Source of the DNA: Utricularia gibba
Lineage: Eukaryota; Streptophyta; Magnoliopsida; Lamiales; Lentibulariaceae
Direction: 5' to 3'
Assembly (NCBI GenBank): GCA_002189035.1
Contig: NEEC01000021.1
Location: forward strand, 930,001 to 994,000
Length of the DNA stretch: 64,000 bases
The position numbers and the translations under genes were made by a program. Under the pieces are notes generated by a model. That model made no database searches, was not told where the DNA came from, and saw only the letters and a list, made by a program, of their open reading frames with translations. This document shows positions 21,174 through 23,335 of this stretch, in pieces; position 1 is the first letter of the stretch, and every line of letters starts with the position of its first letter.

Positions 21174-23335
21174 TCACTTGTATATGAGCGCATCACGCTT
21201 AGGTCCTACACCAATGTAGTGTATAGGCAGACCAACCAGTTCTTCTATCCTTTCTACGTAGTTTTGGGTTGCCTTTGGCAGATCCGAGTACCGTCTGATT
21301 GAGGAGATATCAGCTTGCCACCCTGGAATAGTTTCATATTCAACCTGTGCATTGCACAGCAACAAGTTGATGACTTTATGGTCAGACAGTTTTTGTTTGA
21401 AGTGGTTGTTTGTTTGATTTATGGTCAGCAACAAGTTTCATATTCAACCTGTACATAGACAGTTTATGACCATAAAGTTGATGACTTTATGATTTAAAGT
21501 GGTCGTTTGTTTGAGTTTTTGCTTACCTTGAGTTGCTCCAGAACATGGAGATCAGATGGAAATGAAGGCACTGGGGAGCCATCTGAATTTTTGTAAGAGA
21601 CTCCCAATTTAATTTCTTGTAGGTCAGACAGGACATCCAGTTTGGTAAGATTCAGGGATGAAAATCCATTTATTTGGCAGCAGAACTTGAGGGAAGCTAT
21701 ATCCAACCAACCGCAACGACGAGGTCGACCTGTTGTGGTGCCAAACTCCTGCCCTGCAAATCTGAGTGGATCACCAGCTTTTCCGGTGATTTCTGTTAGG
21801 AAAGGGCCCTGACCCAACACGAGTGGTGTATGCTTTGACCTGTGAATCAGAAGGGAAAATGAGCAATGGCTTAGTATAAGTGAAATGGGAACTACACAGT
21901 TAACAGTATGGATATAGCTTGGTGATCGTACACTTGATGCAATATCAGGAAGCATTCACACTTACCACTCCTATGAGATCACCAACATTCCTAGGAGCAA
22001 TACCAAGACCAGTGCAAATACCTCCAGCAGACGGATTGGAGGAAGTAACGAAGGGGTAAGTTCCAATATCAATATCCAACATAGTTGCCTGACCACCTTC
22101 CACCAAGACAGTTCGATTCTGGGATACAGCATCATTTATGTAGTGGACAGTATCAGTAATGTACGGCTCCAGTCTCTCAGCAAACGCCTAGTATCGTTCG
22201 ACTTCTTCCTTAAGCATGTTGGGACTGTAGTTGAAACCCTTGAAGCATGATGCAGCATCAGAGAGTAAGGGATCCAGTTTCTGAGGGAATGTATCCATAT
22301 GCTTCAAATCAGTAACTCTTATTCCATTGCGGATAACGTTGTTAGAATAGCAAGGCCCGATACCTCTCTTGGTAGTTCCTATGAATGACTTGGCAAGCTC
22401 AGCCTCTCTAAGCCCGTCGACAACTTGATGGAAATCAAATAACAGATGTGCGCGGTCAGATACCAATATCCTTCCGTTGCAGGAAACTCCATTAGATTCA
22501 AGACAATCGATTTCCTGGAATAACCCTGGCAGATGAATCACGACTCCATTACCAATCACACAGACAGTATTCCAGAGGGAACAAGATGAAGGGCAAACTT
22601 CTTTCCTTCAGCATTATAAATAGTGTGCCCTGCATTAGCTCCACCCTGAACATGAACCAAAGTGAAGGCGTTAAAAGGAGAAATCCCCCATGAACACATC
22701 TGATGTAATCACATTGTGAGAAAGACACCAAATTTGAGCTTAGCATTCTAATGAGATGAATTTTTCAGGAGCTCAGGTCTTCTAAAGGAACTCCAGTTCT
22801 ACAATACGTAATCTAACAGATCCTGGGAATCAGAACAGTGAAAAAGACTACTTTGTCGAAATCCTGCAAAATAAATAAAAAAAAGATTGCGCTTTCCTGA
22901 AATGCATTCAAAATTCATCAAAAAAAAAACGTCCTGTATTTTCACTAATGACAACATTTCCAAAGCTCCACCTAGTTTCATCATCACACCGATACCGGAA
23001 CTGGGACAATCCCTTAAGTATACAAAGAGAATCATGCAGACCTGGCAACGAGCGACGATATCGAAGTGCTTGGCCAAAATATCAACAAGCTTTCCCTTCC
23101 CTTCATCTCCCCATTGGCATCCAAGCACACCTGAAACCTGACTCAGCGATCCAATCCTATCTATCCCCACGGTCGATTTGCAGGTATCTTGCTCGATCAC
23201 GGAAGCGGAGCAAAAAACCAACCGCTTCTTACCGCTTTTCGCTGAGGCTACCCTGAGGCCGGCACCGGCGCGGTTCACCTTTGGTACACTACTCGACAGA
23301 GACGGCGCCGAGGAGAAAGCAGCCGAAAAACTCAT
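21174..23335 (-). pseudogene. Adenylosuccinate synthetase, disrupted copy
   Basis: Homolog of plastid adenylosuccinate synthetase, which joins IMP and aspartate using GTP in AMP synthesis. Exon 1 (from 23335 to about 23042; an in-frame Met also at 23380) has a Ser/Arg-rich transit peptide, then [20 protein letters not shown] (GTP site) and HFDIVARCQ. Exon 2 starts [11 protein letters not shown]. Later conserved blocks: [101 protein letters not shown]. Lesions: (1) near 22561-22570 the family segment between SGIL and VCVIGNG is shortened and the frame lost; (2) an in-frame TAG at 22188-22190 between VERY and AFAERL; (3) an extra base near 21805 between GSGPFP and TEITGKAG; (4) a partial duplication of the last splice acceptor. 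GIGPCY replaces the usual GIGPAY. Several independent lesions favour a pseudogene of a duplicated locus, although sequence error could explain some. Confidence 0.8.
21331..21516. repeat. Partial tandem duplication across last ADSS intron/exon border
   Basis: The 17-bp string at 21331-21347 (coding strand: splice acceptor CAG plus the first codons of VEYET) recurs at 21435-21451. The downstream phrases GTTGATGACTTTATG and GTGGT(T/C)GTTTGTTTGA are also duplicated, giving an offset of about 104 bp. Use of the upstream acceptor copy would read VEYETCC and stop. Confidence 0.7.

Follow-up and report, generated by a model that had tools for sequence, protein, structure and literature searches.

The window, the whole stretch of DNA analysed here, comprises 64,000 nucleotides of the Utricularia gibba genome (contig NEEC01000021.1, positions 930,001 to 994,000). 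On its minus strand it carries a gene for plant adenylosuccinate synthetase (ADSS), the enzyme that forms adenylosuccinate from IMP, aspartate and GTP. The gene extends from an ATG at 23335 to a stop at 21174 and consists of four exons separated by phase-0 introns (Table 1). Every exon matched plant ADSS, with 1dj2 as the best and 1dj3 as the second match (for exons 3 and 4 the query was a second copy of the gene, on contig C1, described below), and exon 2 with its stop masked matched 1dj2 with an E value of 1.5e-109. The search output names the enzyme alone; we take 1dj2 to be the Arabidopsis and 1dj3 the wheat protein. The N-terminal extension encoded by exon 1, usual in plant ADSS, is presumably a plastid transit peptide. 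Over all four exons the locus is collinear with the plant enzyme (PurA/ADSS; PF00709; 1DJ2, 1DJ3), yet it differs in having lost its reading frame to a 13-nt deletion, a nonsense codon and an insertion of 1 nt.

Table 1. The ADSS gene of the window and its lesions. Positions are those of the window, except in the last row, which refers to loci on contigs C451 and C496.
Feature	Position	Strand	Remarks
Exon 1	23042-23335	-	98 codons, open; start codon, putative transit peptide, GDEGKGK P-loop
Intron 1 donor	23036-23041	-	GTCTGC; weaker than GTGAGC of the C1 copy
Exon 2	21966-22645	-	680 nt; 693 nt in the C1 copy
13-nt deletion site	22570/22571	-	Exon 2; frame lost
TAG in place of AAG (Lys)	22188-22190	-	Exon 2; in frame
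Exon 3	21527-21839	-	313 nt; 312 nt in the C1 copy
1-nt insertion (extra A)	21796-21797	-	Exon 3; frame lost
Intron 3	21345-21526	-	182 nt, enlarged via partial duplication; 76 nt in C1
Copy of exon-4 acceptor and first 15 nt of exon 4	21434-21456	-	Within intron 3
True exon-4 acceptor and first 15 nt of exon 4	21330-21352	-	
Exon 4	21174-21344	-	57 codons including stop, open
HSP70 genes L024 and L025	L024, ~1508-1514; L025, ~1526-1530		One base missing from a short C/G run

Lesions were called against the C1 copy and the Arabidopsis and wheat enzymes. Relative to all three, exon 2 lacks 13 nt, so that the residues around ILNED are lost and the frame is shifted. In the same exon an AAG codon has become TAG (CTA on the plus strand) where the C1 copy and both reference enzymes have lysine, and exon 3 contains one additional A (CCTAACAGAA in the window vs CCTACGGAA in C1). 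A preliminary description of this DNA had placed a deletion with frame loss near 22565, a TAG at 22188-22190 and an extra base near 21805, and all are real, the deletion lying at 22571/22570 and the additional A at ~21797. We also agree with its view that the TAG and the multi-base deletion are not homopolymer errors, as neither a 13-nt deletion nor an A-to-T change is of that type. Rescue by read-through, with the deletion and the insertion cancelling (-13 and +1, net -12), was ruled out because several stops occur in the shifted frame between the two frameshifts. A functional ADSS needs an unbroken reading frame across the PF00709 domain, and in the window copy this frame is interrupted by the deletion, the TAG and the +1 insertion. 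As assembled, and judged by its sequence, the gene is a pseudogene, and it probably yields no useful product.

Splice signals have changed as well. The motif ATGYACAG together with the first 15 nt of exon 4 occurs twice, the repeat lying inside intron 3 about 104 nt upstream of the true site and identical to it at 22 of 23 positions, which bears out an earlier report of a duplicated splice acceptor. As the true acceptor is still present, the duplicate may compete with it but is no proven lesion. The altered intron 1 donor had been overlooked in the preliminary description.

That description had also predicted a functional copy elsewhere in the genome. One other copy was found, at C1:2766866-2768749 (~2.767 Mb), where the whole enzyme is covered, all exons are present and all splice sites are intact. 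The prediction thus stands as to the existence of the copy; as to its function it needs a qualification, in that a G run in the P-loop codons of exon 1 is one base short (TGGGGGATGAAG vs TGGGGAGATGAAG in the window). The assembled C1 copy therefore has a frame break too, and neither copy is perfect on paper. Apart from the missing G, the C1 gene has no lesion; a TAG within the match was considered and dismissed, as it sits in the intron directly before exon 2. The three coding lesions described above are confined to the window copy, and the single G contraction of C1 is a different one. A search of the genome with the Pfam model PF00709 returned these two loci only, as did a DNA query of 701 bases that spanned C1 exon 2, and with neither was a third copy found in the genome assembly, which may omit some sequence. 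The assembly is not grossly incomplete, since it contains other genes of the purine pathway: adenylosuccinate lyase, the AICAR transformylase/IMP cyclohydrolase family, SAICAR synthetase and GMP synthetase.

Contractions of this kind occur in other genes of the assembly. Two HSP70 genes each have one frame break where a C/G run is one base short and are otherwise intact over ~1.7 kb, which we regard as a sign of homopolymer contraction errors. Because the same type of contraction is the sole lesion in these two genes, the missing G in C1 exon 1 is most likely an assembly error, and the C1 copy would then be functional. Since healthy genes of this assembly show single-base C/G-run contractions, caution is needed: the death of a gene should be called from lesions of other types, which is feasible for the window ADSS. 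Among the HSP70 matches, G000:C241:12834-18511 and G000:C304:2235549-2238296 have identical scores in mirror order and may represent a part of the assembly that is redundant or duplicated.

The two ADSS copies lie in a large collinear block. Comparison of the window with 65 kb around the C1 copy (blastn and tblastx) gave a long series of ordered, same-strand matches across most of the window. The corresponding region of C1 (2.757-2.796 Mb) includes a SEX4-like phosphatase adjoining ADSS, a TPD1-like gene and a gamma-carbonic-anhydrase-like gene, all named from reading their translations, not from a family search. Further away, an HSP70 pair (C321:453-455 kb and C1:2.260-2.268 Mb) lies ~0.5 Mb from ADSS on each contig, on the same strand. 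Collinear flanking genes thus surround both copies and, on the strength of the ordered matches and the HSP70 pair, the gene order indicates that the two ADSS genes are partners of a segmental or whole-genome duplication. Retained introns and collinear flanks rule out a tandem or retrotransposed copy: the window gene has the same four exons and phase-0 introns as C1, with introns at the parental positions and no retro signature, and its disabling lesions are without counterpart in the partner, as in a non-processed pseudogene. The existence of the second copy, in a duplication that is large and collinear, supports the earlier suggestion that the locus is a relic of a duplication.

An estimate of dN/dS against the other copy, which had been proposed as a check, points to a loss that was recent relative to the duplication. 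Over 481 codons dS was 0.48 and dN/dS 0.13 (Nei-Gojobori with Jukes-Cantor correction), with dS ranging from 0.33 to 0.74 in other segments of the collinear block, the only regions in which paralogue dS was measured. With the Arabidopsis and wheat proteins as outgroups, 16 replacements (including the TAG) are specific to the window copy vs 12 to C1, and it is because the former barely exceed the latter that we regard the loss as recent, and a recent loss would in turn explain why dN/dS still resembles that of a working gene. A long-dead relic was ruled out by the same dN/dS and by the near-equal replacements in the two copies. A simple Poisson model, which assumes equal dS on both branches and ignores the uncertainty of dS, places the loss of constraint in the most recent 1.8% of the time elapsed after the duplication (95% interval 0-6.6%); as this interval includes a fraction f of 0, the replacement counts alone require no loss of constraint. 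With f between 3 and 6%, rough assumed rates predict some 0.5-1 nonsense changes and 1-2 frameshifts, in agreement with those observed. The window copy therefore probably lost its function within roughly the final 0-7% of the period that followed the duplication.

Given the directly observed lesions, second copy, collinearity and low dN/dS, we consider, with a probability of about 0.88, that the window locus is a recently inactivated ADSS duplicate from a segmental or whole-genome duplication and that the C1 copy has kept the function. A segmental or whole-genome duplication would have produced two copies of the nuclear ADSS gene, and purifying selection would have acted on both during most of the period that followed. 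Later, the window copy would have acquired the 13-nt deletion, the nonsense codon and the 1-nt insertion and ceased to encode the enzyme, with ADSS function retained by the C1 copy. A tentative extension, which we think somewhat doubtful, is that dosage or subcellular targeting kept both copies under selection through most of their post-duplication history and that one was lost recently, perhaps still as a segregating null allele.

A neighbouring idea is that the lesions mark one segregating null haplotype, and that the other haplotype, or other plants, carry an intact allele. The lesions are recent by replacement count and a collapsed assembly displays one haplotype only, but several separate lesions and an intron duplication on one copy argue for time without constraint, and we judge this explanation unlikely. 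Were both assembled copies truly broken, the enzyme would have to be supplied by a third copy, unassembled or outside the examined sequence. Here the missing G falls in the P-loop exon of C1, and the C1 sequence is exactly 8,500,000 bases (8.5 Mb) long, so that it is possibly cut and an ADSS copy may lie beyond it. Against this, C1 is without other lesions, HSP70 genes that are otherwise intact show the same C/G contraction, and neither the PF00709 model nor the DNA query found a third locus; such a copy is accordingly quite improbable. Least probable of all, if only slightly, is that the gene is intact and that errors of sequencing or assembly account for the lesions. Single-base homopolymer errors do occur in the assembly, as the contractions in the HSP70 genes and SEX4-like copies illustrate, and the extra A on its own could be one; the 13-nt deletion and the A-to-T substitution giving TAG would be a different type of error, however, and the same copy carries the intron 3 duplication.

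The inactivated duplicate resembles the non-processed fractionation pseudogenes that follow plant whole-genome duplications in having introns, a collinear partner, point lesions and small indels, and also in that its partner is under purifying selection. There is no categorical difference; the window loss is late, within about the last 7% of the elapsed time. The locus is a clean case in which an essential enzyme lost one of its duplicates late, and the tentative extension above, if correct, would make it a dated late loss in a normally single-copy housekeeping gene. Such loss is nonetheless an ordinary fate for a spare gene copy and has no wider consequence. A literature search returned nothing specific to ADSS duplicates.

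Other genes of the block show features of their own. The SEX4-like phosphoglucan phosphatase gene of the window (25339-27682) has a collinear C1 partner. Each of the two has a single-base gap in one short run, and in both a GC donor may serve the intron that follows GSCLQ. For the gamma-carbonic-anhydrase-like gene (window 59422-61056) it is the C1 partner (~2795068-2795751) that has decayed: it lacks the middle exons, and its exon 1 has two single-base gaps. Gene loss in the block thus runs both ways. A segment in the middle of that window gene (59713-59898) is 82% identical, in opposite orientation, to C1 2772232-2772413, which is ~23 kb away, near the SEX4-like gene, and is possibly a moved exon or another copy. 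Elsewhere in the assembly, C516, which carries an intact 1085-residue rpoB frame (G000:C516:38666-39835), seems to be a plastid contig.
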